In this document: piece by piece, positions 18,677-41,264 of the stretch
Position numbering within the stretch: the stretch's first letter is position 1
How the letters are laid out: each line of letters opens with the position of its first letter
Source of the DNA: Pseudobutyrivibrio sp. OR37
GTDB lineage: Bacteria > Bacillota > Clostridia > Lachnospirales > Lachnospiraceae
Direction of reading: 5' to 3'
Length of the DNA: 52,231 bases
NCBI RefSeq assembly: GCF_900113655.1
Contig: NZ_FOQF01000026.1
Span: 1-52,231, forward strand
Made by a program: the position numbers and the translations under genes
Notes under the pieces: generated by a model
The model's database searches: none
The model's input: only the letters and a program-made list of their open reading frames with translations
Told to the model about the DNA's origin: nothing

Positions 18677-18705
18677 TTGCAATCTATCGAAAATAGTTGT
18701 ATAGT
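18677..18705 (+). promoter_or_regulatory. Sigma-A promoter of the gltBD-GS-ANTAR operon
   Basis: TTGCAA (18677-18682), 17 bases, TATAGT (18700-18705). The transcript would start near 18712, only a few bases before the hexaloop hairpin at 18714, so the leader holds essentially just the attenuator. Confidence 0.78.
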
Positions 18706-18713
18706 TTTGCACA

Positions 18714-18769
18714 AGACAAAGGCGTCTAAAGAAATTCCCGTAGTGGGAGTTTCTTTAGGCGCCTTTTTT
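18714..18769 (+). promoter_or_regulatory. ANTAR-type hexaloop hairpin overlapping a terminator (leader of gltB)
   Basis: Hairpin AGAC (18714-18717), loop AAAGGC (18718-18723), GTCT (18724-18727). The loop has A at position 1 and G at position 4, as ANTAR targets do. Alternative fold: the terminator stem from AAAGGCG-T-CTAAAGAAA to TTTCTTTAG-G-CGCCTTT, with upper stem CCC/GGG and a T run ending at 18769. The two folds share 18718-18727 and exclude each other, so a protein stabilising the small hairpin would prevent termination. The same loop occurs at 26813 and 30673. Confidence 0.82.
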
Positions 18770-18798
18770 GTATATCTAAAAGTGGAAGGAGTAGCATA

Positions 18799-21700
18799 AT
18801 GGACAATTGCAATCAGCAGGTGGGATTATATGATCCATCATTTGAGCATGACAACTGTGGAATTGGAGCGGTGGTTTCTATTAAAGGTGTAAAAACACAT
18901 CAGACTGTATCTGATGCACTTAAGATTGTTGAAAATCTTGAGCATCGTGCCGGAAAGGACGCCGCAGGAGAGACTGGTGATGGAGTAGGAATTTTACTGC
19001 AGATATCTCATAAGTTTTTCAAGAAGACATGCGCTCAGCTGAAAATAGATATAGGTAACGAGCGCGAGTACGGTGTGGGAATGTTTTTCTTTCCTCAGGA
19101 TGAGCTGAAACGTAAACAGGCTATGAAGATGTTTGAAATCATAGTTGAAAAGGAAGGAATGGAATTCTTAGGTTGGAGAGAGGTACCAACTAAAGCAGAG
19201 ATACTTGGAACCCTTGCAAGAGATTGCATGCCATTTATATGTCAGGCATTTATTAAAAAGCCTAAGGATGTACAAAAGGGATTAGCTTTTGACAGAAAGC
19301 TGTATGTGGCAAGACGTGTATTTGAGCAGACAGCAGAGGATACTTATGTTGCATCTCTATCAAGCAGAACAATCGTATACAAGGGAATGTTTCTTGTAAA
19401 CCAATTGCGTTTATTTTTTGAGGATTTGATGGATGAGGATTTTGAATCTGCTATAGCAACAGTACATTCTCGTTTTTCTACAAATACAAATCCATCTTGG
19501 GAGAGAGCACATCCTAACAGATTCATAGTACACAATGGAGAAATCAATACTATCAAGGGTAATGCCGACAAGATGCTTTCAAGAGAAGAGACAATGGTTT
19601 CTCAGGTACTTGAGGATGAGATGACTAAAATCACTCCAGTTTGCAATCAGGCCGGTTCGGATTCAGCCATGCTTGATAACGCATTGGAGTTCCTTGTAAT
19701 GAACGGAATGCCTCTTCCACTTGCAGTAATGATTACCATTCCTGAGCCATGGGTTAAAAACAAGGCTATGGAACAGGCAAGAAGAGATTTCTATCAGTAT
19801 TATTCAACAATGATGGAGCCATGGGATGGTCCTGCATCAATCCTGTTTTCGGATGGAGATATTATGGGTGCAGTGCTTGATAGAAATGGACTAAGACCAT
19901 CCAGATATTACATTACAAATGACGATTATTTAATCCTTTCTTCAGAGGTAGGAGTACTTCCAATAGAGGAAAGCAGAATCAAGCTTAAGGATAGATTAAA
20001 GCCAGGTAAGATGCTGCTTGTGGATACTGTTGAGGGAAGATTAATAGATGATAATGAGCTAAAGAAGGATTTTGCGGCAAGACAGCCTTATGGTCAGTGG
20101 CTGGATGCTAATTTGGCTCACTTAGCAGATATTAAGATTCCAAATGAGCCAGTGCCTAAATATTCCAAGGAAGAAAGAGACAGATTGCAAAAGGCATTTG
20201 GATATTCCTATGAGGAGATAAAGGATTCTATTCTTCCAATGGCACTTAATGGTGTGGAAAATACTGGTGCCATGGGTATAGATGTGCCACTTGCGGTGCT
20301 TTCAAAAAATCATCAGCCACTGTTTAATTATTTTAAGCAGCTTTTTGCACAGGTAACAAATCCACCTATCGATTCAATACGTGAGGAGATTGTTACCGCA
20401 ACAACTATCTATCTTGGTACGGCAGGAAATGTACTTGAGGAGAAGGAAGAAAACTGTAACATGCTACAGATTAACAATCCTATCCTTACTACTACAGATT
20501 TGATGAAGATTAAATCTATGAAGGTACCAGGCTTGCAGGCTGCCACTGTGCCAATTATCTTTTACAAAAATACCTCTTTAGAAAAGGCGATAGAGCATTT
20601 ATTTGTGGAAGTAGATAAGGTGAATCATGAGGGGGCTAATATTATCATCCTTTCCGATAGAGGTGTGGATGAAAACCATGTGGCTATACCTTCACTTCTT
20701 GCAGTTGCAGCAGTACAGCATCATTTGGTACAGACTAAAAAGCGTACTTCACTTTCACTGATTCTAGAATCAGGTGAACCACGAGAGGTGCATCATTTTG
20801 CAACCCTGCTTGGCTACGGTGCATCTGCAATCAATCCTTATCTTGCTCAGGAAACTATAGCAGAGCTTATAGAGAAGGGGCAGCTTAAGAAGGATGTTCA
20901 TGCTGCAATTGATTCCTACAATGAGGCAGTTATAAGTGGAATTATAAAGATTGCGTCAAAGATGGGTATTTCTACAGTCCAGTCATATCAGGGCGCAAAG
21001 ATTTTTGAAGCGATTGGAATCAGTAAGGAAGTAATAGACAGATATTTCACAGGCACTATTTCACGTATCGGTGGAATTACCCTTAGTGATATAGAGTCTG
21101 ATGTAGAAATGCAGCATTCTAAGGCCTTTGATCCACTAGAACTGGATGTGGATGAAACTCTTGATTCAAGAGGACAGCACAAGATGCGCTCAGGTGCAGA
21201 GGAGCATTTGTACAATCCTGCTACAATTCATTTACTTCAGCTTGCAACAAGAACGGGAGATTACAATACCTTTAAGGAATATACAAGTCTGGTAAATGAG
21301 GAAGACAATATCCGTAACCTAAGAGGATTAATTGATTTTAATTATCCTAAAAAGGGAATCAGTATTGATGAGGTAGAATCAGTAGATTCTATTGTTAGAA
21401 GGTTTAAGACTGGCGCCATGAGCTACGGTTCTATTTCAAAGGAAGCCCATGAGACTATGGCTATTGCCATGAACATGCTTCACGGAAAATCTAATTCCGG
21501 TGAAGGTGGAGAAGAGGATGAAAGATATGAGGTAGGTCCTGATGGACTTAATCGTTGTTCGGCTATCAAGCAGGTGGCATCTGGTCGATTTGGTGTAACC
21601 AGCAAATACCTGGTATCTGCTAAGGAAATACAGATAAAGATGGCTCAAGGTGCAAAGCCAGGTGAAGGTGGTCATCTGCCAGGCAAGAAGGTTTACCCTT

Positions 21701-23340
21701 GGATTGCAAAGACAAGACTTTCGACTCCAGGTGTTGCTCTTATTTCGCCACCTCCTCATCATGATATTTATTCAATCGAGGATTTGGCAGAGCTTATTTA
21801 TGATTTGAAAAATGCTAATAAGGATGCACGTATATCTGTAAAGCTTGTTTCAGAAGCAGGAGTTGGAACCATTGCATCAGGTGTTGCAAAGGCAGGAGCA
21901 CAGGTAATCCTTATTTCTGGCTATGATGGAGGAACAGGTGCAGCACCAAAGTCATCTATCCATAATGCAGGCTTACCATGGGAGCTAGGCCTTGCAGAGG
22001 CCCATCAGACTCTTATTATGAATGGTCTTCGAAATAAGGTGGTTATCGAGACAGATGGAAAGCTTATGAGCGGACGTGATGTGGCAATTGCCTGCGCTCT
22101 TGGAGCAGAGGAATTTGGATTTGCCACAGCTCCACTTGTAACTATGGGCTGTGTAATGATGCGTGTGTGCAATTTAGATACATGTCCTGTAGGTGTGGCT
22201 ACACAAAACCCAGAGCTTAGAAAGAGATTTTCTGGAAAGCCAGAGTATGTGGTGAACTTTATGCGCTTTATTGCACAGGAGCTTAGAGAATACATGGCAG
22301 CATTAGGCTGCAAGACTGTTGATGAGCTTTGCGGTAGAAGCGATTTACTTAAGGTAAAGGAGAATACTGACAGTGCCTTTAGAAAGGTTGATATGTCAGC
22401 TGTATTAAGCAACCCAACAGGTGGCGAGAAGATAGAATACGCTAAAAAGAATGTATATAATTTTGAGCTTGAAAAGACCATAGATGAAAGAGTGCTTTTA
22501 AAGGAATTTAAGAGTGCCATTGCAGCAGGAAAGCCAAAGGAGATTTCTGTAGATATCGTAAATACGGATAGATCTCTAGGTACACTTCTTGGTGCGCAGC
22601 TTACCAGAAAGTACGGTGAAGCTTTGCCAGAGGATACCTATAAGGTAAACTGCCATGGAGCAGGTGGACAATCCTTTGGTGCCTTTATTCCAAAGGGACT
22701 TACCTTAGAGCTATCAGGCGATTCAAACGATTACTTTGGTAAGGGCTTATCAGGCGGTAAGCTGATTGTCTATCCACCAGAGGGAGCAACCTATAAGGAA
22801 GATGAAAATATAATCATTGGTAACGTGGCACTATATGGTGCTACTAGCGGTAAGGCATTTATAAATGGTGTTGCAGGAGAACGTTTTGCTGTAAGAAATT
22901 CTGGTGCAACAGCTGTTGTAGAAGGTGTAGGTGACCACGGCTGCGAATACATGACAGGTGGCCGCGTGGTTGTGCTTGGTGAAACAGGAAAGAACTTTGC
23001 AGCAGGTATGAGTGGTGGAATCGCCTATGTGTTAGATGAGGATGCTACGCTGTACAAGAAGCTAAATAAATCCATGGTATGCCTTGAGACAGTAACAGAT
23101 AAATATGATGTTATGGAGCTGAAGGAAATTATTGGTGAGCACGTTTTGGCCACTGGCTCTAAAAAGGGCAAGGAGATATATGACAACTTCAGCAAATATC
23201 TGCCTAAATTTAAAAAGATAGTACCATTCGATTATAAGAAAATGCTGGCAGCCATGGTGAAGATGGAGGCTAAGGGCTTGTCTGCAGAGCAGGCTCAGAT
23301 TGAAGCTTTTAATATGTTAATGGGAAATCAGGGTGCATAA
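18799..23340 (+). CDS. gltB: Glutamate synthase large subunit
   Basis: 1513 residues. With GltD it converts 2-oxoglutarate and glutamine into two glutamates. Order: class II amidotransferase with nucleophile Cys20 in HDNCGIG (19 residues precede it, a propeptide to be cleaved), central linker domain, FMN-binding synthase domain (TGAMSYGSISKEAHETMA, SNSGEGGE, GGHLPGKKV), 3Fe-4S cluster cysteines in MRVCNLDTCPVGVATQ, and the C-terminal beta-helix with repeated G-x-x-G turns (GVGDHGCEYMTGGRVVVLG). Full length. RBS GGAAGGAG. First gene of the operon gltB-gltD-GS-like-ANTAR; expression is likely controlled by the attenuator directly upstream. Confidence 0.97.
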   Translation: MDNCNQQVGLYDPSFEHDNCGIGAVVSIKGVKTHQTVSDALKIVENLEHRAGKDAAGETGDGVGILLQISHKFFKKTCAQLKIDIGNEREYGVGMFFFPQDELKRKQAMKMFEIIVEKEGMEFLGWREVPTKAEILGTLARDCMPFICQAFIKKPKDVQKGLAFDRKLYVARRVFEQTAEDTYVASLSSRTIVYKGMFLVNQLRLFFEDLMDEDFESAIATVHSRFSTNTNPSWERAHPNRFIVHNGEINTIKGNADKMLSREETMVSQVLEDEMTKITPVCNQAGSDSAMLDNALEFLVMNGMPLPLAVMITIPEPWVKNKAMEQARRDFYQYYSTMMEPWDGPASILFSDGDIMGAVLDRNGLRPSRYYITNDDYLILSSEVGVLPIEESRIKLKDRLKPGKMLLVDTVEGRLIDDNELKKDFAARQPYGQWLDANLAHLADIKIPNEPVPKYSKEERDRLQKAFGYSYEEIKDSILPMALNGVENTGAMGIDVPLAVLSKNHQPLFNYFKQLFAQVTNPPIDSIREEIVTATTIYLGTAGNVLEEKEENCNMLQINNPILTTTDLMKIKSMKVPGLQAATVPIIFYKNTSLEKAIEHLFVEVDKVNHEGANIIILSDRGVDENHVAIPSLLAVAAVQHHLVQTKKRTSLSLILESGEPREVHHFATLLGYGASAINPYLAQETIAELIEKGQLKKDVHAAIDSYNEAVISGIIKIASKMGISTVQSYQGAKIFEAIGISKEVIDRYFTGTISRIGGITLSDIESDVEMQHSKAFDPLELDVDETLDSRGQHKMRSGAEEHLYNPATIHLLQLATRTGDYNTFKEYTSLVNEEDNIRNLRGLIDFNYPKKGISIDEVESVDSIVRRFKTGAMSYGSISKEAHETMAIAMNMLHGKSNSGEGGEEDERYEVGPDGLNRCSAIKQVASGRFGVTSKYLVSAKEIQIKMAQGAKPGEGGHLPGKKVYPWIAKTRLSTPGVALISPPPHHDIYSIEDLAELIYDLKNANKDARISVKLVSEAGVGTIASGVAKAGAQVILISGYDGGTGAAPKSSIHNAGLPWELGLAEAHQTLIMNGLRNKVVIETDGKLMSGRDVAIACALGAEEFGFATAPLVTMGCVMMRVCNLDTCPVGVATQNPELRKRFSGKPEYVVNFMRFIAQELREYMAALGCKTVDELCGRSDLLKVKENTDSAFRKVDMSAVLSNPTGGEKIEYAKKNVYNFELEKTIDERVLLKEFKSAIAAGKPKEISVDIVNTDRSLGTLLGAQLTRKYGEALPEDTYKVNCHGAGGQSFGAFIPKGLTLELSGDSNDYFGKGLSGGKLIVYPPEGATYKEDENIIIGNVALYGATSGKAFINGVAGERFAVRNSGATAVVEGVGDHGCEYMTGGRVVVLGETGKNFAAGMSGGIAYVLDEDATLYKKLNKSMVCLETVTDKYDVMELKEIIGEHVLATGSKKGKEIYDNFSKYLPKFKKIVPFDYKKMLAAMVKMEAKGLSAEQAQIEAFNMLMGNQGA

Positions 23341-23352
23341 GGAGGATTAGTC

Positions 23353-24849
23353 ATGGGAAAATCTACAGGATTTTTAGAATATGAACGTGTAGAGGAAGTG
23401 GCTGTAAGTCCTCTAGAGCGTATTAAGAATTTTAATGAGTTTCACACTCCTCTTCCAAAGGAGGAGCGTGAGCGTCAGGCAGCCAGATGTATGGATTGCG
23501 GTGTACCATTTTGTCAGTCAGGTATGACTATTAAGGGGATGACTTCAGGCTGCCCTCTTAATAATCTGATTCCTGAATGGAACGATTTGGTTTATCAGGG
23601 CAATTATGACATTGCCTACAAGAGACTACACAAGACTAGCAACTTTCCAGAGTTTACTTGCAGAGTCTGTCCAGGCTTATGTGAAAAGGCTTGCACCTGT
23701 AGCTTGAACGGTGATGCTGTTACCACAAAAGCAAATGAGATGGCAATAATTGAATATGCATATGCCAATGGTTTGGCTGATGCCAAGCCTGTAAAGCAGC
23801 GCACAGGAAAGCGTGTTGCAGTAGTAGGCTCAGGACCTTCAGGACTTGCTGTTGCAGATCAGCTTAATAGAAGAGGCCACAAGGTAACTGTATATGAGAG
23901 AAATGACAAGGTAGGTGGTTTGCTTCGATATGGAATTCCAAACATGAAGCTTGAAAAGCAGATTATCGATAGAAAGATTCATGTAATGGAGCAGGAAGGA
24001 ATTGAATTTATCGTAAATGCGAATGTTGGCGATAATGTAAAGGCTGCTGATTTAACAGACAAATTTGATGCTGTTGTTCTTTGCTGTGGCTCGTCAAATC
24101 CTAGGGATATTGCAGCAGAAGGCAGAAAGGAAGCAAATGGAATCTATTTTGCGGTAGATTTTCTGGCATCTACTACAAAGTGTCTGTGGAACAATAATAT
24201 GCAGCTTGTGGACGGTCAATATATTTCTGCTAAGGGCAAGGATGTGGTAATCATCGGTGGCGGTGATACAGGAAACGACTGCGTAGGCACCTCTATCCGT
24301 CATGGCTGTAAATCTGTAACACAGTTAGAAATGATGCCAAAGGCTCCAGATGAAAGAGCAGAAAGTAATCCATGGCCACAGTGGCCACTTGTGTGCAAGA
24401 CTGACTATGGTCAGGAAGAGGCTATAGCAAAGTTTGGACATGATCCACGTATCTATACTACTACGGTAAAGGAGTTTAAGACTGATAAATCTGGCAATCT
24501 GAAATCAGTTGTATTAGTTTCTCTGGAAGCCAAGTTAGATAAAAAGACTGGAAGAAAGCTGATGGTTCCAGTAGAGGGAACCGAAAAGGAAATCAAGTGC
24601 CAGCTTTGTCTTATTGCAGCAGGCTTTTTAGGCTCTGAAAAGTATGTAACTGATGCTTTTAAGGTAGGATTGGACGCAAGAACTAATGTGGCATCTGAAG
24701 GTAAGGGAAGCTTTGCAACAAATCAGCCAAAGGTATTTACAGCCGGTGATATGCACACAGGTCAATCTCTTGTAGTAAAGGCTATAAGAAGTGGACGAGA
24801 CTGCGCAAGACAGGTAGATGAATATCTGATGGGGTATACAAACCTCTAG
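23353..24849 (+). CDS. gltD: Glutamate synthase small subunit
   Basis: 498 residues. It passes electrons from NADPH through FAD and two 4Fe-4S clusters to GltB. Cluster cysteines are seen in ARCMDCGVPFCQ, GCPLNN and CRVCPGLCEKACTC; FAD site VAVVGSGPSGLAVADQL (from about 156), NADPH site VVIIGGGDTGNDCVG (about 297), and the GDMHTGQSLVVKAIRSGRDCA end motif. It starts 12 bases after gltB with GGAGG as RBS; clearly one operon. Confidence 0.97.
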   Translation: MGKSTGFLEYERVEEVAVSPLERIKNFNEFHTPLPKEERERQAARCMDCGVPFCQSGMTIKGMTSGCPLNNLIPEWNDLVYQGNYDIAYKRLHKTSNFPEFTCRVCPGLCEKACTCSLNGDAVTTKANEMAIIEYAYANGLADAKPVKQRTGKRVAVVGSGPSGLAVADQLNRRGHKVTVYERNDKVGGLLRYGIPNMKLEKQIIDRKIHVMEQEGIEFIVNANVGDNVKAADLTDKFDAVVLCCGSSNPRDIAAEGRKEANGIYFAVDFLASTTKCLWNNNMQLVDGQYISAKGKDVVIIGGGDTGNDCVGTSIRHGCKSVTQLEMMPKAPDERAESNPWPQWPLVCKTDYGQEEAIAKFGHDPRIYTTTVKEFKTDKSGNLKSVVLVSLEAKLDKKTGRKLMVPVEGTEKEIKCQLCLIAAGFLGSEKYVTDAFKVGLDARTNVASEGKGSFATNQPKVFTAGDMHTGQSLVVKAIRSGRDCARQVDEYLMGYTNL

Positions 24850-24853
24850 AATT

Positions 24854-24882
24854 TAATATCATAATCAACTATTATGATATTA
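24854..24882. repeat. AT-rich perfect inverted repeat between gltD and the GS-like gene
   Basis: TAATATCATAAT, loop CAACT, ATTATGATATTA: 12-bp perfect arms with no T tail. It may be an RNA processing or stabilising hairpin, a weak terminator, or an operator; the sequence does not decide. Confidence 0.6.
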
Positions 24883-24906
24883 TAATAACCTTTAGGAGAG
24901 AAGGAA

Positions 24907-26154
24907 ATGTCACATTTATCAATTGATGATATTATTAATTTTGTTGAAGAAAATGATGTAAAGTTTATCCGTCTGGCCTTTTGCGACTTGTACGGAAATC
25001 AGAAAAATATTTCTATAATGCCATCTGAGCTTAAGAGTGCTTTTGAGGATGGAATTAATTTTGACCCATTTTTAATATTGGGTTTTGAGGATGGGTTAGG
25101 CAAGGATTTATTCCTTAAGCCTGATGCAGATACTCTTCATGTGTTGCCATGGCGCCCACAATCTGGTCGTGTAATCAGATTTTATTGTGATGTAGTTTAT
25201 GCTGATGGAACACCTTTTTCAATGGACTATAGGCAGTTTTTGAAGAATACCCTTAAGGAATGTGAGAAAATTGGATTTTCTACCAAGATGGGACTTCGCT
25301 CGGAATTCTATCTCTTTAAAACAGATGATAATGGTATTCCAACTAGCGAGCCTTTTGACAATGGCGGATATTTGGATGTTGCCCCTAGTGATAGAGGTGA
25401 AAACATTCGAAGAGAAATCTGCCTAAGCTTGGAGGAGATGGGTATATCGCCACAATCATCACATCATGAGAGAGGCCCAGGTCAGAATGAAATCGATTTT
25501 CAATCTGCAGATGCTCTCACCACAGCGGATAATTTTGTTACCTACAAAAATGTTGTAGAAAATATTGCCGCAAGAAATGGTGCCTATGCATGCTTTGAAC
25601 CAAAGCCAATGGAGGATGCCCCAGGTAATGGACTCCATATACTTATGTCTACCCATAAGGGGGAGCAGAATCTTATCACTGAGGATAAGGAATTTGCTGA
25701 TAGCTTTATGGCAGGTATTATAAACAGGATGCGTGATATCACAATCTTCTTAAACTGTCGTAGAGATTCCTATGACAGATTAGGCTATCTTGAGGCCCCT
25801 AAGTATATCACCTGGTCTATGCAGAATAACTCAAGATTATTTAGAGTGCCAGAAATCAATGGCAAGAGAAAGCATTTTATTCTTCGTTCACCAGATTCTT
25901 GTCTTAATCCATATCTTGCCACAGCAATTATTTTGCAGGCAGGAATTGCAGGTGTGAAGAACAAGGAAACTCTGCCTCCTGCTTTAGAGGTAAAAACAAG
26001 ACTTTTAACAGAGGAAGAATATTCGAAATTAAAGGTTTTGCCAGCTACCATCGAAGAAGCAATAGAGTGTGCTGAAAACAGTAGCTTTATAAAAGAATCA
26101 AATTTTGCAGATATCGCAGAAAACTATATAGAGACAATCAAAATGAGCATCTAG
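24907..26154 (+). CDS. Glutamine synthetase-like protein with altered ATP site (probable pseudo-enzyme)
   Basis: 415 residues along the GS type I fold: beta-grasp N-terminus (FIRLAFCDLYGNQKNISIMP) and catalytic domain. Aligned by eye with Salmonella GS, the glutamate-side ligands remain: Glu133 (E131), Glu188 and Glu195 (E212, E220), His244 (H269), Arg291 (R321), Arg313 (R344), Arg327 (R359). The nucleotide side is changed: E129 is Arg131, E357 is Ile325, R339 is Asn308, and the DGSS loop reads DPFL. Two of three n2 metal ligands are thus lost, so normal ATP-dependent synthesis is doubtful. It may bind glutamate/glutamine and act as a sensor for the ANTAR protein encoded 17 bases downstream (inference). 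A true GSIII lies at 28493. RBS TAGGAGAG. Confidence 0.85.
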   Translation: MSHLSIDDIINFVEENDVKFIRLAFCDLYGNQKNISIMPSELKSAFEDGINFDPFLILGFEDGLGKDLFLKPDADTLHVLPWRPQSGRVIRFYCDVVYADGTPFSMDYRQFLKNTLKECEKIGFSTKMGLRSEFYLFKTDDNGIPTSEPFDNGGYLDVAPSDRGENIRREICLSLEEMGISPQSSHHERGPGQNEIDFQSADALTTADNFVTYKNVVENIAARNGAYACFEPKPMEDAPGNGLHILMSTHKGEQNLITEDKEFADSFMAGIINRMRDITIFLNCRRDSYDRLGYLEAPKYITWSMQNNSRLFRVPEINGKRKHFILRSPDSCLNPYLATAIILQAGIAGVKNKETLPPALEVKTRLLTEEEYSKLKVLPATIEEAIECAENSSFIKESNFADIAENYIETIKMSI

Positions 26155-26171
26155 CTTTTAAGGAGTAGACT

Positions 26172-26738
26172 ATGGAAAGAGCGTTAATTGTCTGCGATAA
26201 CGAAAAGGCTACGGCATTTTATAAGTCCTATCTGAAGGAAAATGGTTATGTTGATATGCTTCAGGTGGAAAGTATATCTGCTGCAAAGCGTGCTATCACT
26301 GATTATGATTTTGATATATGTTTTGTTAATCTGCCTTTAGGTGGTTCAAATTCAATTGATCAGGTTATAGATATAGCTGAGAAAAATGTATGCCAAATCC
26401 TTCTGTTTATCAAAGCTGATTACTATGATGAGATAACAGATAAGGTGGCTGATTATGGAATCATTACTGTGTCAAAACCAATCAGTAAGCAGCTGCTGTG
26501 GCAGGCCCTTCGTCATGCCCTTGCTGCCCAAAGGCGTATTGGCATGGCCCATAAGGAAAGTGCGAAGCTAGAGAAAAAGCTTGAAGAGCTTAAGACCATT
26601 TCCAGGGCAAAGCTGCTTTTGATTATCAATGAAAATTTGACAGAGGAAGAGGCTCATAAGCAGATAGAGAAGAATGCTATGGATTTTAGAATTTCAAAAT
26701 ATCAAATGGCAAAGGACATTATAAAAAAATATCAATAA
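26172..26738 (+). CDS. ANTAR-domain antitermination regulator (response-regulator-like receiver)
   Basis: 188 residues. N-terminal receiver-like domain (1-120) and a short coiled coil leading into a clear ANTAR RNA-binding domain (about 125-188: KLEELKTISRAKLLLIINEN, LTEEEAHKQIEKNAMDFRIS, MAKDIIKKY). The receiver keeps Asp8 and a Lys at KPISK (near 106), but the phospho-acceptor position after DFDICFVNLPL is Asn, so it is probably not phosphorylated in the usual way. ANTAR proteins bind hexaloop RNA hairpins with A1/G4 and block terminators (NasR, AmiR, EutV; GlnR of solventogenic Clostridium next to glnA). Three such hexaloops precede gltB, asnB and amt here. Last gene of the gltB operon; the asnB promoter starts 16 bases after its stop. 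Confidence 0.93.
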   Translation: MERALIVCDNEKATAFYKSYLKENGYVDMLQVESISAAKRAITDYDFDICFVNLPLGGSNSIDQVIDIAEKNVCQILLFIKADYYDEITDKVADYGIITVSKPISKQLLWQALRHALAAQRRIGMAHKESAKLEKKLEELKTISRAKLLLIINENLTEEEAHKQIEKNAMDFRISKYQMAKDIIKKYQ

Positions 26739-26754
26739 ATTTTTAAAATACTTA

Positions 26755-26783
26755 TTGACAAATAAATGTCAAACGAATAATAT
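26755..26783 (+). promoter_or_regulatory. Sigma-A promoter of asnB-glnN
   Basis: Consensus TTGACA (26755-26760), 17 bases, TAATAT (26778-26783), right after the ANTAR gene. The start would be near 26790, about 18 bases before the hexaloop hairpin. Confidence 0.85.
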
Positions 26784-26807
26784 ACTAAACAAATAAAAAT
26801 CAATGGA

Positions 26808-26860
26808 ACGACAAAGGCGTCGTGGAAAGTGCTTTTATGCACGGACCACGGCGCTTTTTG
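26808..26860 (+). promoter_or_regulatory. ANTAR-type hexaloop hairpin overlapping a terminator (leader of asnB)
   Basis: Hairpin ACGAC (26808-26812), loop AAAGGC (26813-26818), GTCGT (26819-26823). The competing terminator pairs GCG-T-CGTGG with CCACG-G-CGC, has an upper stem GTGC-TTTTAT-GCAC, and ends in TTTTT (26855-26859). Compared with the gltB leader the outer stem pairs have changed on both sides while the loop is identical. No second hexaloop hairpin fits between the promoter and this element. Confidence 0.83.
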
Positions 26861-26882
26861 TGTTTCTAGGGAAGGTGATTTT

Positions 26883-28469
26883 ATGTGTTCAATAATGGCT
26901 TTAAGTAAATGCCATCTTGAAATGAAGGATTTCGAAGAGGCATTTTCAAAAACAGTAACCAGAGGGCCTGACATGCAAAAGGTTATCACAGTAAGTGATT
27001 CGGTATTGGGCTTTCAAAGATTGTCAATTATGGGTTTGAGTGATGCTGGAATGCAACCCTTTGAGCTGAACGGAAATTACGTGATATGCAACGGAGAGCT
27101 TTACGGATTCAAGAAGGTAAGGGAAGAGCTAAAGGCAGAGGGGTACAAATTCATAAGCGATAGCGATTGCGAAATAATTCTTCCAATGTATCGTAAATAC
27201 GGATGTGAGATGTTTAGTAAATTGGATGCAGAATTTGCAATGGTTATTTACGACAAGGATTTGGATGATTTGGTGGCAGCCAGAGATCCGATAGGAATCA
27301 GACCTTTGTTTTACGGATACGATAGTGAAGGAGCAATCATGTTTGCTTCCGAGGCTAAAAATCTTGTGGGACTTACAGACAAGGTAATGCCATTTCCACC
27401 GGGACATTATTATTACAAGGGTGTGTTTACCTGCTACCGAGATCTGGCAAAGCGTAAGCCTTACAGTGAGGATTCACTGGAAGAGGTAGCAGCTAAAATC
27501 AAAGAAAAGCTGGTAGCCGGCGTAGAAAAGAGACTTGATGCGGATGCACCTGTAGGCTTCCTTTTATCAGGTGGACTTGATTCATCACTGGTGTGTGCCA
27601 TAGCACAAAAGATGATGGACAAGCCAATAAAAACCTTTGCTATCGGAATGAACGAGGATGCCATTGATTTGAAGTATGCAAAGGAAGTTGCAGATTACAT
27701 CGGTTCAGAGCACCACGAAATCATCATTGATAAGGATTTAGTAATTGAGTCTTTAGAAGAAGTAGTTGCTTCACTTGGCACCTACGATATTACAACCATT
27801 AGAGCAAGCATGGGAATGTATCTTATCTGCAAGGGAATCAAAAAGCAGTTCCCAGAAATTCGAGTATTGCTTACTGGTGAGATATCAGATGAGATTTTCG
27901 GATATAAATATACAGATTTTGCACCAAATGCAGAGGAGTTCCAAAAGGAAGCGGAAAAAAGACTTAGGGAGCTTTACATGTATGATGTGTTAAGAGCGGA
28001 CAGATGCATATCAGTACATTCAATGGAAGCAAGAGTTCCATTTGGGGATTTGGATTTTGTAGATTACGTAATGAGCATTAATCCTGAAATGAAAATGAAT
28101 AAATATCAAAAGGGTAAGTATTTACTAAGACATGCTTTTGAGAAAGATGATTATTTACCTTATGACATTTTGTTCAGAGAAAAGGCAGCCTTCTCAGATG
28201 CGGTAGGACATTCCATGGTTTATTACCTAAAGGAATACGCAAACAGCATTTACTCAGATGAAGATTTGGAAAATGCAAAACGTAAATACGAATTTAGAAC
28301 ACCTTTCACCAAGGAGTCACTTCTCTACAGAGAACTGTTTGAAAAATACTACAAAGGCCAGGCACACATGATAGTAGATTTTTGGATGCCAAATAAAACA
28401 TGGCCAGGCTGCAACGTAAACGACCCATCAGCCCGCGTGCTGAGCAATTATGGTGCATCTGGCATTTAA
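26883..28469 (+). CDS. asnB: Asparagine synthase, glutamine-hydrolysing
   Basis: 528 residues from the chosen start. A longer in-frame start at 26829 is rejected: it lies inside the terminator hairpin and would bury the nucleophile. ATG at 26883 gives MCSIM with Cys2, as class II amidotransferases require once Met is removed, and has GGAAGGTG in front. The glutaminase domain (1-190) has RGPD, FQRLSIMGLSDAGMQP and CNGELYG; the synthetase domain has the PP-loop SGGLDSS (229-235) and LLTGEISDEIFGYKY. It makes asparagine from aspartate, glutamine and ATP. Glutamine synthetase III follows 23 bases later, so the donor and its user are made together. Confidence 0.94.
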   Translation: MCSIMALSKCHLEMKDFEEAFSKTVTRGPDMQKVITVSDSVLGFQRLSIMGLSDAGMQPFELNGNYVICNGELYGFKKVREELKAEGYKFISDSDCEIILPMYRKYGCEMFSKLDAEFAMVIYDKDLDDLVAARDPIGIRPLFYGYDSEGAIMFASEAKNLVGLTDKVMPFPPGHYYYKGVFTCYRDLAKRKPYSEDSLEEVAAKIKEKLVAGVEKRLDADAPVGFLLSGGLDSSLVCAIAQKMMDKPIKTFAIGMNEDAIDLKYAKEVADYIGSEHHEIIIDKDLVIESLEEVVASLGTYDITTIRASMGMYLICKGIKKQFPEIRVLLTGEISDEIFGYKYTDFAPNAEEFQKEAEKRLRELYMYDVLRADRCISVHSMEARVPFGDLDFVDYVMSINPEMKMNKYQKGKYLLRHAFEKDDYLPYDILFREKAAFSDAVGHSMVYYLKEYANSIYSDEDLENAKRKYEFRTPFTKESLLYRELFEKYYKGQAHMIVDFWMPNKTWPGCNVNDPSARVLSNYGASGI

Positions 28470-28492
28470 ATAAATTAAGGAGGATATAGATT

Positions 28493-30586
28493 ATGAGTAA
28501 AGTTACAGAGATATTTGGAAGCAAAGTCTTCAACGATGAAACCATGAAGGAGCGTCTCCCTAAGGATGCCTACAAGGCCCTTAAAAAGACAGTGGAAGAG
28601 GGACGCCCTCTAGATAGAGATTTGGCAAATGTAATCGCCCACGCCATGAAGGAATGGGCAATCGAGCTAGGTGCAACACACTTCACACATTGGTTCCAGC
28701 CAATGACTGGTGTAACTGCTGAAAAGCATGATTCATTTATTCAGCCAGAAGAGGGTGGCAAGGTTATTATGACTTTCTCTGGTAAAGAATTAATCAAGGG
28801 TGAGCCTGATGCATCATCATTTCCATCAGGTGGATTGCGTGCCACATTTGAGGCAAGAGGCTACACAGCCTGGGACCCAACAAGCTATGTATTTATAAAG
28901 GATGATACACTTTGTATTCCAACAGCCTTTTGTTCATATTCAGGAGAGGCGCTTGATAAAAAGACTCCACTTCTTCGTTCTATGGAAGCTCTTGATAAAT
29001 CAGCAGTAAGAGCATTAAAGCTGTTTGGATATGAGGATGTTAAAAGAGTTATTACAACAGTTGGACCTGAGCAGGAATATTTCCTTATTGATGAAAAGAT
29101 GTACAACAAGCGCCCAGATTTGATTTATACAGGAAGAACATTATTTGGTGCAAAGCCTCCAAAGGGACAGGAATTGGATGACCATTATTTCGGAACTATC
29201 AAGCCAAGAGTATCAGCATTTATGAAGGAGCTTGATGAAGAGCTTTGGAAGCTTGGGGTTCTTGCAAAGACAAAGCACAACGAAGTAGCCCCAGCACAGC
29301 ATGAGCTTGCGCCAGTTTATTCTACAACAAATATTGCAACAGACCACAATCAGCTTACTATGGAGATGATGAAGGTGGTTGCAAAAAGACATGGTATGAC
29401 TTGCCTGCTACATGAAAAGCCATTTGCAGGAGTCAATGGTTCAGGTAAGCATAACAACTGGTCGATTTCGACTGATACCGGAGTAAACCTGTTAGAACCA
29501 GGTGCTACACCTTCCCATAACACACAGTTCTTATTATTCCTGACAGCGGTAATAAAGGCTGTAGATGAATATCAGGAGTTGCTCCGTGTATCGGTAGCTT
29601 CTGCTGGAAATGATCATCGACTTGGTGCAAACGAGGCACCACCAGCAATCATTTCTATGTTCCTTGGAGATGAGCTTGAGGCAATTGTTGAGTCAATCAT
29701 CGATGGAACTGATTATGAGGATATTAAAAAGAAAAAGATGTCTGTAGGTGCTGTGGTAATCCCAAGCATTTCACAGGATACAACAGATAGAAACAGAACT
29801 TCACCATTTGCATTTACAGGTAATAAATTTGAGTTTAGATCACTTGGTTCAGCAGCATCTATATCAGGACCAAACGTAATCTTAAACACAATTGTTGCAG
29901 AGGAGCTTGATAAGTTTTCAGATGAGCTTGAAAAGGCAACTGATTTTGAAAAGGCATTAGCAGAGCTTTTAAAGAGAGAACTTACAGCCCATAAAAGAAT
30001 TATCTTTAACGGAAATGGCTACTCAGAGGAATGGGTTAAGGAAGCTGAAAGAAGAGGACTTAAGAATCTTAAATCTACAGTAGATGCACTTCCAGCCTTT
30101 ATTGACGAAAAGGCAATAGATGTATTTACAAAGCATAACGTATTTACGGAGCAGGAGCTTTATAGCCGATATGATATTCAGCTTGAAAACTACTACAAGG
30201 TGATTGATATTGAAGCTCTTACAATGGATGCTATGGTTAAGAAAAATATCATGGCAGCAGCAAATGATTATCAGTATTCATTAGCAGAAACAATAAATGC
30301 TAAGGCTGCTACAGGAATTGATGTTGATTCCACTGTAGAGACAAAGAGATTAAAGCAGGCATCAAAGCTTACCTTTACAATGGATGAGCGTTTAGAGAAG
30401 CTTGAGGCTGATATTGAAAAGGCAAAAGAATTAGAGGATACATATGAGCTTGCCAAGTTCCATCATGATGTGATTTTTGCAGACATGAATGAACTTAGAG
30501 AAGTGGTTGATGAGCTTGAGACAGTAGTACCAAGTGACATCTGGCCATATCCAACTTATGGAGAAATACTTTATAGCGTGAAATAA
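28493..30586 (+). CDS. glnN: Glutamine synthetase type III
   Basis: 697 residues, typical of GSIII, found in Bacteroides, cyanobacteria and rumen/gut Clostridia. Visible: [20 protein letters not shown], the [10 protein letters not shown] catalytic strand, [20 protein letters not shown], the binding segment [12 protein letters not shown], and [16 protein letters not shown]. It assimilates ammonium into glutamine, and with GltBD completes the GS-GOGAT cycle. RBS AAGGAGG, 23 bases after asnB, so it probably shares the asnB leader and its attenuation. All expected motifs are present, unlike the GS-like gene at 24907, so this is the likely functional enzyme. Confidence 0.96.
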
Positions 30587-30591
30587 GGAAC

Positions 30592-30649
30592 ACTTCATCA
30601 TGCCTTCCCCCTTTGGGGGAAGGGGGACCACGAAGTGGTGGATGAGGGT
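30592..30649. repeat. Palindromic intergenic repeat (three-way-junction fold)
   Basis: An outer stem CTTCATC with GATGAGG encloses two hairpins: CCTTCCCCC-TTT-GGGGGAAGG (30603-30623) and ACCAC-GAA-GTGGT (30627-30639). This is a REP/MITE-like module of the kind dispersed through Lachnospiraceae and related genomes. Only one copy is in the window. It has no T run, so terminator function is unlikely. Confidence 0.7.
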
Positions 30650-30668
30650 TAATAAAATAAATAACATA

Positions 30669-30715
30669 GCACAAAGGCGTGCGGCAATTATTAAGTAATT
30701 GCTGCGCGCTTTTTA
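30669..30715 (+). promoter_or_regulatory. ANTAR-type hexaloop hairpin overlapping a terminator (leader of amt)
   Basis: Hairpin GCAC (30669-30672), loop AAAGGC (30673-30678), GTGC (30679-30682). The competing terminator pairs GCG-T-GC-G-GCAATTA with TAATTGC-T-GC-G-CGC and ends in TTTTT (30710-30714). As in the other two leaders there is a U-G wobble directly after GCG. The promoter is weak by eye: TAACAT at 30662-30667 is the best -10. Confidence 0.82.
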
Positions 30716-30740
30716 TATATTTAATTAGGAGGAAATAATT

Positions 30741-32486
30741 ATGGAAGAATATTCAAGCATGTTATTTGGCGTTTGGTTCTTAATAGGCGCCGCCTTGGTA
30801 TTTTGGATGCAGGCAGGTTTTGCTATGGTGGAGGCTGGCTTTACCAGAGCAAAAAATACTGGAAACATCATAATGAAAAACCTTATGGACTTTTGTATTG
30901 GTACAGTAATGTTCGTAATCCTTGGTTTTGGATTGATGTTTGGTGAAAATGCTTTCTTTGGTCTTGTTGGAAAGCCATCCCTTCAGGTATTTACAGATTA
31001 TGCCAGCTTTGACTGGAGCAACTTTGTATTTAACCTGGTATTCTGCGCGACAACAGCTACAATCGTAAGTGGTGCTATGGCAGAGCGTACAAAGTTCATT
31101 AGCTATTGTATCTACTCAGGTATTATTTCATTAGTAATTTACCCAATCGAGGCACACTGGATTTGGGGAGGCGGCTGGCTTTCTGCTATCGGTTTCCACG
31201 ATTTCGCAGGTAGCTGTGCAATCCACATGGTAGGTGGTATTTGTGCTCTTATCGGAGCTAAAATCTTAGGACCTAGAATTGGTAAGTTTAATCATGACAG
31301 CAAGGGCAGAATTACAAAAGTAAATGCTTTCCCAGGTCACAACATTGCACTTGGAGCACTTGGTGTATTTATTCTTTGGCTTGGTTGGTATGGATTTAAC
31401 GGTGCTGCTGCAACATCAGTAGAGCAGCTTGCTTCTATATTTGTTACAACAACAATTGCACCAGCAGTTGCAACATGTACAACAATGGCTTACACATGGC
31501 TTAAGTATGGCAAGCCAGATGTATCAATGTCACTTAATGCATCACTTGCAGGCCTTGTTGCAATCACAGCCCCATGCGACGTTACAGATGCACTTGGTGC
31601 AATCATTATTGGTGTTGTTTCAGGCTTTTTAGTAGTATTTGGTGTATGGCTTCTTGACTACAAGCTTCACATTGATGATCCAGTTGGAGCTGTAGCAGTT
31701 CACATGATGAACGGTATTTGGGGAACAATTGCAGTAGGATTATTTGCAACAACATCAGCTCCTGATAGCACACTTACTGGTCTTTTTTATGGAGGAGGAT
31801 TTAAGCTTCTTGGAATTCAGCTTTTAGGTGTTCTTTCAGTTGGCGCATGGGCAGCAGTTACAATTACTATCGCATTTACGTTAATAAAAAATACTATTGG
31901 ACTTCGTGCATCAGCAGAAGAGGAAATTGTAGGTCTTGATAGAACAGAGCATGGATTGCCATCAGCATACTCTGGTTTCAACATGCTTGAGGATGATTTC
32001 GATACAGATGAATATGATGATGAGACAGCAACACTTATTACAGATACATTAGAGGCTGCAGGTCTTGCATCTATGGATGAGGCGGTTGAGGTTGAATACG
32101 CACCTTCACAGATTACATCTGCAGGAAAGCCTAGAATGACAAAGGTAGAAATCCTTTGCAAGGAGCGTAACCTTGAAAAGCTAAAGAATGCCCTTATCAA
32201 GCTTGGTATTACAGGTATGACAGTATCACATGTAATGGGCTGTGGTGTTCAGAAGGGTGCCCCTGAATATTATAGAGGTGTAGCTTTAGAGCCAGCATTA
32301 CTTCCAAAGATTAGAGTGGATGTTGTAGTTTGCAAGGTTCCTGTTAAGGATGTAATTGAAACTGCAAAGAAGGTTCTTTACACAGGTCATATCGGTGATG
32401 GCAAAATCTTCGTATATGATGTTGAGCAGGTTGTAAAGATTAGAACAGGTGAGGAAGATTTCGCAGCACTTCAGGATGTGGAATAA
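30741..32486 (+). CDS. Ammonium transporter fused to a PII signal domain
   Basis: 581 residues. The first 390 are an Amt channel with eleven predicted membrane helices and the twin pore histidines His162 (CAIHMVGG) and His321 (AVHMMNG). An acidic linker (about 391-463) leads to a complete PII domain (466-581): TKVEILCKERNLEKLKNAL, T-loop GCGVQKGAPEYYRG, and TGHIGDGKIFVYDVEQ. PII proteins block Amt by inserting the T-loop into the pore; here the plug is tethered. The tyrosine uridylylated in GlnB (Tyr51) is Leu516, so control should be by ATP/ADP/2-oxoglutarate only (inference). No free glnB is seen nearby. RBS TAGGAGGAA; the ANTAR-type leader precedes it. Confidence 0.95.
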   Translation: MEEYSSMLFGVWFLIGAALVFWMQAGFAMVEAGFTRAKNTGNIIMKNLMDFCIGTVMFVILGFGLMFGENAFFGLVGKPSLQVFTDYASFDWSNFVFNLVFCATTATIVSGAMAERTKFISYCIYSGIISLVIYPIEAHWIWGGGWLSAIGFHDFAGSCAIHMVGGICALIGAKILGPRIGKFNHDSKGRITKVNAFPGHNIALGALGVFILWLGWYGFNGAAATSVEQLASIFVTTTIAPAVATCTTMAYTWLKYGKPDVSMSLNASLAGLVAITAPCDVTDALGAIIIGVVSGFLVVFGVWLLDYKLHIDDPVGAVAVHMMNGIWGTIAVGLFATTSAPDSTLTGLFYGGGFKLLGIQLLGVLSVGAWAAVTITIAFTLIKNTIGLRASAEEEIVGLDRTEHGLPSAYSGFNMLEDDFDTDEYDDETATLITDTLEAAGLASMDEAVEVEYAPSQITSAGKPRMTKVEILCKERNLEKLKNALIKLGITGMTVSHVMGCGVQKGAPEYYRGVALEPALLPKIRVDVVVCKVPVKDVIETAKKVLYTGHIGDGKIFVYDVEQVVKIRTGEEDFAALQDVE

Positions 32487-40196: not shown

Positions 40197-41264
40197 ATGA
40201 AAGCATTAATAGCTATGAGCGGTGGCGTAGATAGTAGTGTCGCTGCATTATTAATGAAGGAAAAGGGATATGAGTGCGTAGGCTGCACTATGAAGCTTTA
40301 TGCCAACGAAGATATCGGGGTGTGCAATGGTCACACATGCTGTTCCTTAGACGACGTAGAGGATGCCAAGGCTGTTGCAAGACGTCTTGAGATGCCGCAT
40401 CATACCTTTAATTTCCAGGAGAAATTTAGAGAGACAGTTATTGATAATTTTATAAGCTGCTACGAATGTGGTATGACACCTAATCCATGTATTGAGTGTA
40501 ATAAGCACATGAAGTTTGATGAGCTTTATCGCAGAGCACAGATTTTGGGCTGCGAAAAGATTGTCACTGGACATTACGTTAGAATTCGTAAATGCGATAA
40601 TGGATATCAACTATTAAAGGGACTTGATGGTAATAAGGACCAAAGCTACGTACTTTATAACATGACTCAGGAGGAGCTTGCACATACAGAGTTTCCACTG
40701 GGAGAGCTTTCAAAGGATGAGGTACGCCGTATAGCAGAAAGTCACGAATTTATCAATGCAAACAAGCCAGATAGTCAGGATATCTGCTTTGTTCCAGATG
40801 GAGATTATGTCTCAGCTCTTAAGAGATTCACAGGCAAGGAATATGAGCCAGGTGATTTTGTAGATATGGAAGGGAATGTTCTTGGAAAGCACAAGGGCAT
40901 AGTAGGCTATACTATAGGTCAGCGAAAGGGACTTGGAATATCTGCCGCATATCCTTTATATGTAGTAGCTTTAGACGTTCCTGGCAATAGGGTTATCCTT
41001 GGAAAGAATGAGGATTTATTCTCAAAGGATGTATTAGTTAAGAATATCAATTGGATTGATCCAAATGATGATAGAGAAGAGTTTGATTGCAGCGCAAAGG
41101 TGCGCTACAGAATGGCAGATCAGCCTTGCCATGTGGTTAGACTAGATAAAACTACAGCTAAGATAACATTTGTGGAACCACAGAGAGCCATAACACCAGG
41201 TCAGGCAGCAGTATTTTATGATGGGGACGTGGTGCTTGGCGGTGGCACAATCGTGGGCAAGTAG
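40197..41264 (+). CDS. mnmA: tRNA-specific 2-thiouridylase MnmA
   Basis: 355 residues. PP-loop SGGVDSS (8-14), central thiolation site with Cys101 (NPCIECNKH) and Cys197 (SQDICF), and TIGQRKGLGI, LYVVALD in the C-terminal barrel. It puts the 2-thio group on the wobble uridine of tRNA-Lys, -Glu and -Gln. Extra cysteines (VGCTM, GVCNGHTCCS, ISCYECGM, CIEC) are more than in the E. coli enzyme and could hold an Fe-S cluster. Weak RBS AAGAGGTTTAT. Confidence 0.95.
   Translation: MKALIAMSGGVDSSVAALLMKEKGYECVGCTMKLYANEDIGVCNGHTCCSLDDVEDAKAVARRLEMPHHTFNFQEKFRETVIDNFISCYECGMTPNPCIECNKHMKFDELYRRAQILGCEKIVTGHYVRIRKCDNGYQLLKGLDGNKDQSYVLYNMTQEELAHTEFPLGELSKDEVRRIAESHEFINANKPDSQDICFVPDGDYVSALKRFTGKEYEPGDFVDMEGNVLGKHKGIVGYTIGQRKGLGISAAYPLYVVALDVPGNRVILGKNEDLFSKDVLVKNINWIDPNDDREEFDCSAKVRYRMADQPCHVVRLDKTTAKITFVEPQRAITPGQAAVFYDGDVVLGGGTIVGK

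Follow-up and report, generated by a model that had tools for sequence, protein, structure and literature searches.

A single-hexaloop leader hairpin associated with the ANTAR protein NitR in nitrogen-assimilation operons of Pseudobutyrivibrio and other Clostridia

In a 52,231-nt stretch of the genome of Pseudobutyrivibrio sp. OR37 (contig NZ_FOQF01000026.1; hereafter the window), three nitrogen-assimilation operons open with leaders that share a small hairpin with the six-base loop (hexaloop) AAAGGC, and one of these operons encodes a pseudo-receiver-ANTAR protein, which we name NitR after its Clostridium counterpart. NitR very probably switches these three operons, and at least one operon elsewhere in the genome that encodes a GlnP-like transporter, through one hexaloop hairpin at the start of each message. 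An earlier note, made from the letters of the window, had taken the ammonium uptake, GS-GOGAT (glutamine synthetase-glutamate synthase) and asparagine genes to be one regulon; this is supported here by the association of the hairpin with nitrogen genes and with nitR, by covariation of its stem and by retention of the leaders within Pseudobutyrivibrio, with RNA binding and read-through as the presumed means.

Hairpins and terminators in the leaders

The hairpins and their overlapping terminators in the window, from sequence and folding (hairpins) or folding (terminators), are as follows.

18714..18727, + strand: gltB-leader hexaloop hairpin AGAC-AAAGGC-GTCT, putative NitR site 1 and antiterminator
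18718..18769, + strand: gltB-leader terminator, mutually exclusive with the hairpin
26808..26823, + strand: asnB-leader hexaloop hairpin ACGAC-AAAGGC-GTCGT, putative NitR site 2
26813..26861, + strand: asnB-leader terminator, mutually exclusive with the hairpin
30669..30682, + strand: amt-leader hexaloop hairpin GCAC-AAAGGC-GTGC, putative NitR site 3
30673..30716, + strand: amt-leader terminator, mutually exclusive with the hairpin

All three AAAGGC hairpins proposed before gltB, asnB and amt are thus present, each with A at loop position 1 and G at position 4. In every leader the terminator draws its 5' arm from the loop and 3' arm of the hairpin, and alternative folds computed for all three bear out the earlier suggestion that the two structures exclude each other. 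Whole-leader folds favour the terminator (gltB -38.0, asnB -32.4 and amt -26.4 kcal/mol; z -8.0, -6.3 and -5.8), and the small hairpin forms in each leader once the downstream part is left out of the fold. Since the terminators, at -26 to -35 kcal/mol, outweigh hairpins of -2 to -5 (gltB -2.3, asnB -4.8, amt -3.8), transcription would by default stop before the gene. Both window strands were scanned for terminator-overlapping hexaloops of the A..G.. type, closed by C-G on a stem of at least 4; this returned the three leaders and one match at 41096 (7-pair arm), which was set aside as weak but is still counted among the 102 sites of the tests of upstream hairpins and -10 boxes below. No Rfam family reached its gathering score in the window leaders.

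The 10-mer ACAAAGGCGT has eight exact matches in the 3.56-Mb genome, and four of these have both hairpin and terminator: the three window leaders and locus L004 (G000:C45:49348-49361, minus strand), where GAAC-AAAGGC-GTTC overlaps a terminator and is followed by an amino-acid ABC permease. The highest-scoring NCBIfam model for this permease is GlnP, at 189.5 bits, under the model cut-off of 303. By eye, the remaining four matches (L005-L008) lack the hairpin-terminator combination. The 14-mer of L004 also stands before a permease that looks very similar by eye in G417 (L231), the sole other genome of the genus in the Clostridia sample described below. The earlier note had described a set of three leaders; those three are confirmed, but the set exceeds three here, with L004 before the glnP-like permease as the fourth. 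Allowing one mismatch in ACAAAGGCGT made it a poor detector, with 199 genome matches against 229 for a reversed control, and this search was abandoned.

Association with NitR and constancy of the element across Clostridia

Clostridia genomes (N = 293) were drawn regardless of nitR, and the 82 that hold NitR at 154 bits or more were taken as nitR genomes. The 14-mer CAGCAAAGGYGCTG occurs in 35/82 nitR genomes versus 13/211 others (P = 1e-12) and the 14-mer GAACAAAGGYGTTC in 34/82 versus 21/211 (P = 5.5e-9); both are present in 24/82 versus 3/211 and either in 45/82 versus 31/211, while the reversed 14-mers are unassociated with nitR (3/82 versus 4/211; 5/82 versus 12/211). The two match at 63 and 73 places, of which the loci of 30 and 30 were examined. 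A terminator overlaps 24 of the 31 CAGC matches, 21 of these 24 lying before gatC, glnN, asnA or amt, and 17 of the 30 GAAC matches, 12 of these 17 lying before glnA, gltB-type, asnB, purA, purC, dapF or permease genes (both read from first residues). Some matches with no detected terminator also precede nitrogen-type genes, namely glnN (L184), gltB-type (L204, L221, L223), pyrG (L208) and glnA (L219); others of this kind resemble coding sequence. Matches in nitR-free genomes likewise include coding sequence; L209, L215 and L220 look by eye like elongation factor G. G209 and G362 have the hairpin upstream of a gene that looks by eye like glnA, next to an ANTAR match of 63-64 bits.

The element was also seen in leaders of other functions: before a gatC-like gene (Gln/Asn-tRNA amidotransferase) in L172-L175, L187 and L191 by eye, with L172 confirmed by NCBIfam, and before purA (L207), purC (L212), dapF (L210) and nadE (L072).

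Leaders of glnN, the gene of type III glutamine synthetase, were picked by protein and not by motif, from the best listed places in the 188/293 genomes with a glnN match, giving 150 leaders of about 500 nt from 126 genomes; the statistics ignore relatedness among genomes. A C-G-closed AAxG hexaloop with a stem of at least 4 and a terminator is present in 53/71 nitR genomes, in 13/21 genomes with a distant ANTAR match (58-125 bits) and in 4/34 with no ANTAR match (P = 8e-10 for NitR versus no ANTAR match; P = 2e-6 for NitR versus all the rest). The strict loop AAAGG[CT] gives 37/71, 6/21 and 3/34, respectively (P = 1e-5, nitR versus none). The earlier note would have been refuted had the motif shown no enrichment before nitrogen genes in relatives with this ANTAR protein; run here, the comparison found that enrichment in both the 14-mer and the glnN-leader associations.

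Relatives were further collected by protein, through a GTDB genome scan that used 21 aligned NitR sequences, and the best 80 loci were taken with flanks of up to 10 kb. These contain 57 C-G-closed AAAGG[CT] hairpins (stem of at least 3) that overlap a terminator, spread over 36 loci and mostly before glnN, gltB-type, asnB, glnA, amt, asnA, gdhA, purA and nadE. One example each of asnA, gdhA, purA, nadE, gatC, purC, pyrG and dapF was checked against NCBIfam, and the remaining leader genes in nitR loci were recognized by tblastn with the window proteins or by eye; the gltB-type protein of L202 has just weak amidotransferase matches in NCBIfam. Searching from the genes, for an A..G.. hairpin plus terminator within 320 nt upstream in the same loci (genes inside operons not separated), recovered AAAGGY plus other loops before glnN (16+2/32), asnB (5+1/10), gltB (3+2/7) and amt (1+4/12), part of the 'other' loops being due to chance.

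The stem is kept where the terminator is. Among CAAAGG[CT]G sites in nitR loci, taken with any stem, a stem of at least 4 is present in 53/82 with a terminator versus 14/128 without. Across 28 of the 29 distinct hairpins with a terminator of at least 10, 45 cells changed on both sides versus 16.7 in shuffles and the covariation score was 0.76, versus 0.26 in shuffles and no more than 0.12 after sliding, values in which pairing is inflated by preselection of rows for stems of at least 4; covarying pairs (4/5) and pair-type counts in these 28 hairpins were not above shuffles. The stem excess and the covariation together uphold the covariation that had been read from the three window stems. The loop was then left free. 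In a loop-blind scan of the 80 loci, A1, G4 and the C-G closing pair occur in 18/21 hairpins in nitrogen-gene leaders versus 19/70 elsewhere. Among 50 hairpins from a loop-blind scan of glnN leaders (stem of at least 5 with at least two G/C, terminator arm of at least 12), A1 is present in 50/50, G4 in 48/50 and the closing C-G in 47/50, and position 3 is A, T, G or C in 35, 11, 3 and 1. This constancy fits the prediction from ANTAR recognition, and pairing with the terminator alone is insufficient to explain it.

Within Pseudobutyrivibrio (L062-L064; NitR 87-95% identical) the leaders recur. The gltB stem AGAC/GTCT and the asnB stem ACGAC/GTCGT are kept in all three loci, and in L064 the loops of gltB (AAGGGC), asnB (AAAGGG) and amt differ from those of the window yet retain A1 and G4; the C-to-G change at base 6 of the L064 asnB loop is matched by a change in the 3' arm of the terminator. 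The amt hairpin reads TGCAC-AATGAG-GTGTA in L064, against GCAC-AAAGGC-GTGC in the window, and TACGC-AATGGG-GCGTA in L063 (by eye), where the inverted repeat lacks a long T run. Further loci include L065, with the element before glnA, L066, with a related hairpin of loop ATGGGC (by eye), and L067, with no clear hairpin by eye.

Copies of the element can be multiple: L138 (minus strand, 19359 and 19431) has tandem hairpin-terminator modules 72 nt apart before a purA-like gene, and at L189 (about 1473-1514) and L109 (about 936-970) opposite strands carry the element at the same spot, where a palindromic terminator may be shared by the two directions.

NitR, its operon and the proposed switch

The protein-coding features of the three operons, gltB-gltD-glnA-nitR, asnB-glnN and amt-glnK (fused), are listed below.

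18799..23340, + strand: gltB, glutamate synthase large subunit (open reading frame; named from its own sequence and position before gltD)
23353..24849, + strand: gltD, glutamate synthase small subunit (TIGR01317, 637 bits, cut-off 447.7)
24907..26154, + strand: glnA, glutamine synthetase of the type I family (Gln-synt_C/N domains)
26172..26738, + strand: nitR, pseudo-receiver-ANTAR protein of 188 aa, with Asn53 at the phospho-Asp position (PF03861)
26883..28469, + strand: asnB, glutamine-hydrolysing asparagine synthase (open reading frame; NCBIfam match from residue 19 of the mechanical open reading frame)
28493..30586, + strand: glnN, glutamine synthetase type III (PF12437 GSIII_N; 24 nt behind asnB)
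30741..32486, + strand: amt fused to a P-II (GlnK) domain (PF00909 and PF00543)

The asnB start was corrected to ATG 26883 from the GTG 26829 of the mechanical open reading frame. Since glnN starts 24 nt after asnB, two glutamine synthetases are probably under the switch. The stretch from glnN to the amt leader contains a dispersed palindromic repeat, TTCCCCCTTTGGGGGAAGG (30588-30650, core 30605-30623), with 35 genome matches at two or fewer mismatches and 0 for the reversed control; a similar palindromic repeat is seen by eye between asnB and glnN in L062 and L063. Contig positions 1-140 are the 3' end of a 23S rRNA gene.

The ANTAR gene placed at 26172 in the gltB operon is borne out by PF03861 (47.4 bits, E 1.7e-12, cut-off 27.3) and by the gltBD-glnA-nitR layout, and it carries the sole ANTAR domain found in this genome. 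The receiver part scores 26.9 against Pfam Response_reg, under the cut-off of 30.2, and no NCBIfam model matches NitR; the AlphaFold 2 model (predicted local distance difference test 92.9) has its best PDB matches in Rv1626, EutV and AmiR and shows the receiver/coiled-coil/ANTAR fold. The phospho-Asp position holds Asn in 75/78 NitR sequences and Asp in 1/78, so that NitR lacks the phospho-acceptor of EutV-type receiver (REC)-ANTAR proteins and control by a kinase is unlikely; by analogy with AmiC for AmiR, a partner protein is the natural guess. Of the EutV residues that contact RNA (PMC8934654), K149 and E160 are kept in 78/78 NitR sequences and the K143 and K147 positions are Arg/Lys in 75/78 each. 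The gene directly before nitR is glnA in 68/80 loci, as in the window, and in four further loci the contig ends there; this near-constant pairing suggests glutamine synthetase as the sensor partner, again on the model of AmiC. An in-frame stop lies within the match to a NitR homologue at L084 (10001-10564).

Published ANTAR targets in eut, nas and ami leaders comprise two hexaloop hairpins, P1 and P2, with an eut linker of 5-12 nt, and deletion of P1 abolishes induction (PMC3369931); that the published target is a pair had been overlooked in the earlier note. At the 102 sites tested, a P1 with a linker of 3-14 nt was found at 2 with a stem of at least 3 (shuffles 4.3 ± 2.1) and at the same 2 with a stem of at least 4 (shuffles 1.8 ± 1.3), and in the three window leaders there is no P1 within 60 nt. 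At 69/102 sites the hairpin is preceded by a -10-like box (one mismatch at most to TATAAT) whose end lies 3-14 nt away, most often 8-12 nt; the same count at six shifted positions is 14-20. In glnN leaders the box is present at 46/71 versus 9, 10 and 21 at three shifted positions. With the box just upstream, transcription would begin only a few bases from the hairpin. A consensus scan predicts two promoters in the window, of which that of gltB fits this spacing, and similar gltB and asnB promoters are seen by eye in L062, L063 and L064.

18677..18705, + strand: predicted gltB promoter, TTGCAA-17 nt-TATAGT (-10 ends 8 nt before the hairpin)
26755..26783, + strand: predicted asnB promoter, TTGACA-17 nt-TAATAT (-10 ends 24 nt before the hairpin)

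We infer a switch in which NitR would bind and antiterminate at these predicted transcript starts in answer to a nitrogen signal. Each message would open with one small hairpin of loop A-A-x-G-x-x, of which A1, A2, G4 and the closing C-G pair are near-constant. When nitrogen is plentiful NitR would be inactive, the downstream inverted repeat would capture the loop and 3' arm, and the terminator would form ahead of the start codon; under nitrogen scarcity NitR would bind the hexaloop as it emerges from the polymerase, hold the hairpin, block the terminator and let transcription continue. The direction, on under nitrogen limitation, is taken by analogy from NitR of Clostridium saccharobutylicum. 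Active NitR would have to engage the hexaloop before the polymerase has moved on by another 40-50 nt. As nitR closes one of the putative target operons, positive feedback would be expected. A wider proposal, in which our confidence is rather less than even, is that a single 5'-end hexaloop captured within those 40-50 nt of transcription replaces the P1 'recruitment' hairpin of EutV, that feedback-inhibited glutamine synthetase, encoded upstream, holds and releases the pseudo-receiver as nitrogen sensor, and that the regulon is class-wide, taking in ammonium uptake, GS/GOGAT, asparagine, tRNA-amidotransferase and purine genes.

An alternative interpretation is that these are canonical P1+P2 targets in which P1 was overlooked, as NitR is a true ANTAR protein and the eut, nas and ami leaders have both hairpins (PMC3369931). 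A weak excess of upstream A..G.. hairpins at loose spacing (6 versus 3.4 ± 1.7 within 40 nt and 14 versus 7.4 ± 2.7 within 70 nt, of 102) favours this, but we consider it unlikely because P1 at the linker of 3-14 nt is not above chance, an AT-rich candidate appears in just 4/71 glnN leaders (a count made without shuffles), the -10-like box often occupies the place where P1 is expected, and a similar search, serving as positive control, does see P1+P2 just before eutA in 3/16 Clostridia loci (L233, L237, L242; without background). Another possibility is that some other factor, a small ligand or a second RNA-binding protein, recognizes the hairpin and nitR is a mere neighbour, and a few genomes do have the hairpin with no ANTAR match (4/34 for glnN); this seems quite improbable to us, given that A1 and G4 in a hexaloop whose closing pairs are conserved mark an ANTAR target (PMC3369931, PMC8934654), that the hairpin is associated with nitR, that the genome has a single ANTAR domain and that no Rfam family reaches its gathering score. 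It is very improbable that the leaders are ordinary terminators in which AAAGGC is the A-tract and GC start of the terminator stem and the small hairpin arises by chance. AAAGGC...GCCTTT is plausible as terminator composition and the three lone hairpins are ordinary against shuffles (z -0.7 for gltB, -2.1 for asnB, -1.2 for amt); this reading was nonetheless rejected on the stem excess at terminator-linked sites, the covariation, the loop-blind scans, in which A1 and G4 are kept while positions 3, 5 and 6 vary, and the association of the 14-mers and of the glnN-leader hairpins with nitR.

Other observations weigh against a single-hexaloop switch worked by NitR. For EutV, antitermination depends on both hairpins (PMC8934654, PMC3369931); a single one might thus bind the protein to no effect. 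Among the RNA contacts, the EutV R142 position is hydrophobic in at least 74/78 NitR sequences, Y164, which stacks on G4 (PMC8934654), is His in 78/78, R168 is Glu in 75/78 and R177 is mostly Thr/Ser. The window-wide promoter scan gave 34 matches versus 36.4 shuffled, no excess; the case for the -10 box is therefore drawn from the comparison of positions across sites. Neither 14-mer is present in 37/82 nitR genomes, and in 18/71 nitR genomes there is no hairpin before any glnN copy examined, these 18 including the window genome, in which glnN follows asnB, and its congener G417. Conversely, G293, G186, G395 and G182 have the glnN hairpin with no ANTAR match, possibly through a missed ANTAR gene, and its presence in 13/21 genomes with a distant ANTAR match ties the hairpin to ANTAR proteins more than to the NitR clade alone. 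The search from genes also scored low for glnA (2+8/63, or 10/63), gltD (0+1/11) and glnK (0/7), whose starts may often be internal to operons.

Relation to known ANTAR systems

The source study for NitR of C. saccharobutylicum is reportedly that of Stutz et al. 2007. This protein, like the NitR of the window, is an ANTAR protein tied to glutamine synthetase, and according to the review PMC6316151 it antiterminates GS/GOGAT genes under nitrogen limitation; what differs here is that the element is a defined single hexaloop, that the operons number at least four, among them asnB-glnN, amt-glnK and the glnP-like transporter, and that the comparison is class-wide. EutV of Enterococcus faecalis shares the REC-ANTAR fold with NitR, and its targets share the A1/G4 hexaloop and the overlap with a terminator; the window hairpins also have the A-U/C-G closing pairs described for eut. 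NitR leaders, in contrast, lack P1 and place the hairpin at the predicted transcript start, and NitR itself lacks the phospho-Asp and has His for Tyr164 in all 78 sequences. AmiR of Pseudomonas aeruginosa is, like NitR, a pseudo-receiver ANTAR protein with His at the Y164 position, and is described as regulated by its partner protein AmiC and not by a kinase (PMC8934654); the amiE leader, however, has P1+P2 (PMC3369931), and the neighbour of NitR is glnA.

An ANTAR nitrogen regulon of at least 13 elements in six units is described for Desulfotomaculum acetoxidans (PMC3369931), which like the present one places several nitrogen operons under one ANTAR RNA class but was found with the dual-hairpin model, whose P1 the NitR leaders lack. 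Single-hexaloop ANTAR sites have been suggested for the EutX small RNA and some Mycobacterium tuberculosis leaders (PMC8934654). These suggestions treat one hexaloop as the binding unit, as proposed here, but concern settings where a transcribing polymerase sets no time limit, whereas NitR hexaloops overlap terminators and belong to a nitrogen regulon. NasR is reported to bind a lone P2 hairpin weakly, at about 12 uM (PMC7496416), and structural work on EutV reduced the minimal ANTAR site to a single hexaloop, leaving open why antitermination needs two and to what extent single-hexaloop sites are used in nature (PMC8934654). The large natural set of single hexaloops makes this one-versus-two question directly testable in vitro, and the two-hairpin eut leaders found in the same class (3/16 eutA loci) can serve as a within-class contrast. 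Many nitrogen-assimilation genes of Clostridia may be regulated in this way, with NitR in 82/293 sampled genomes.

We found no report of single-hexaloop NitR leaders in a literature search conducted mostly outside subscription papers. The link of NitR with glutamine synthetase, ANTAR nitrogen regulons and one hexaloop as the minimal binding unit were known already; new, within the literature searched, is a large class of natural leaders in which a lone hexaloop hairpin at a predicted transcript start overlaps a terminator, and its tie to glnA and a pseudo-receiver ANTAR protein. The proposed ammonium-assimilation switch of this gut-type bacterium appears simpler than the two-hairpin design hitherto thought necessary for ANTAR proteins.

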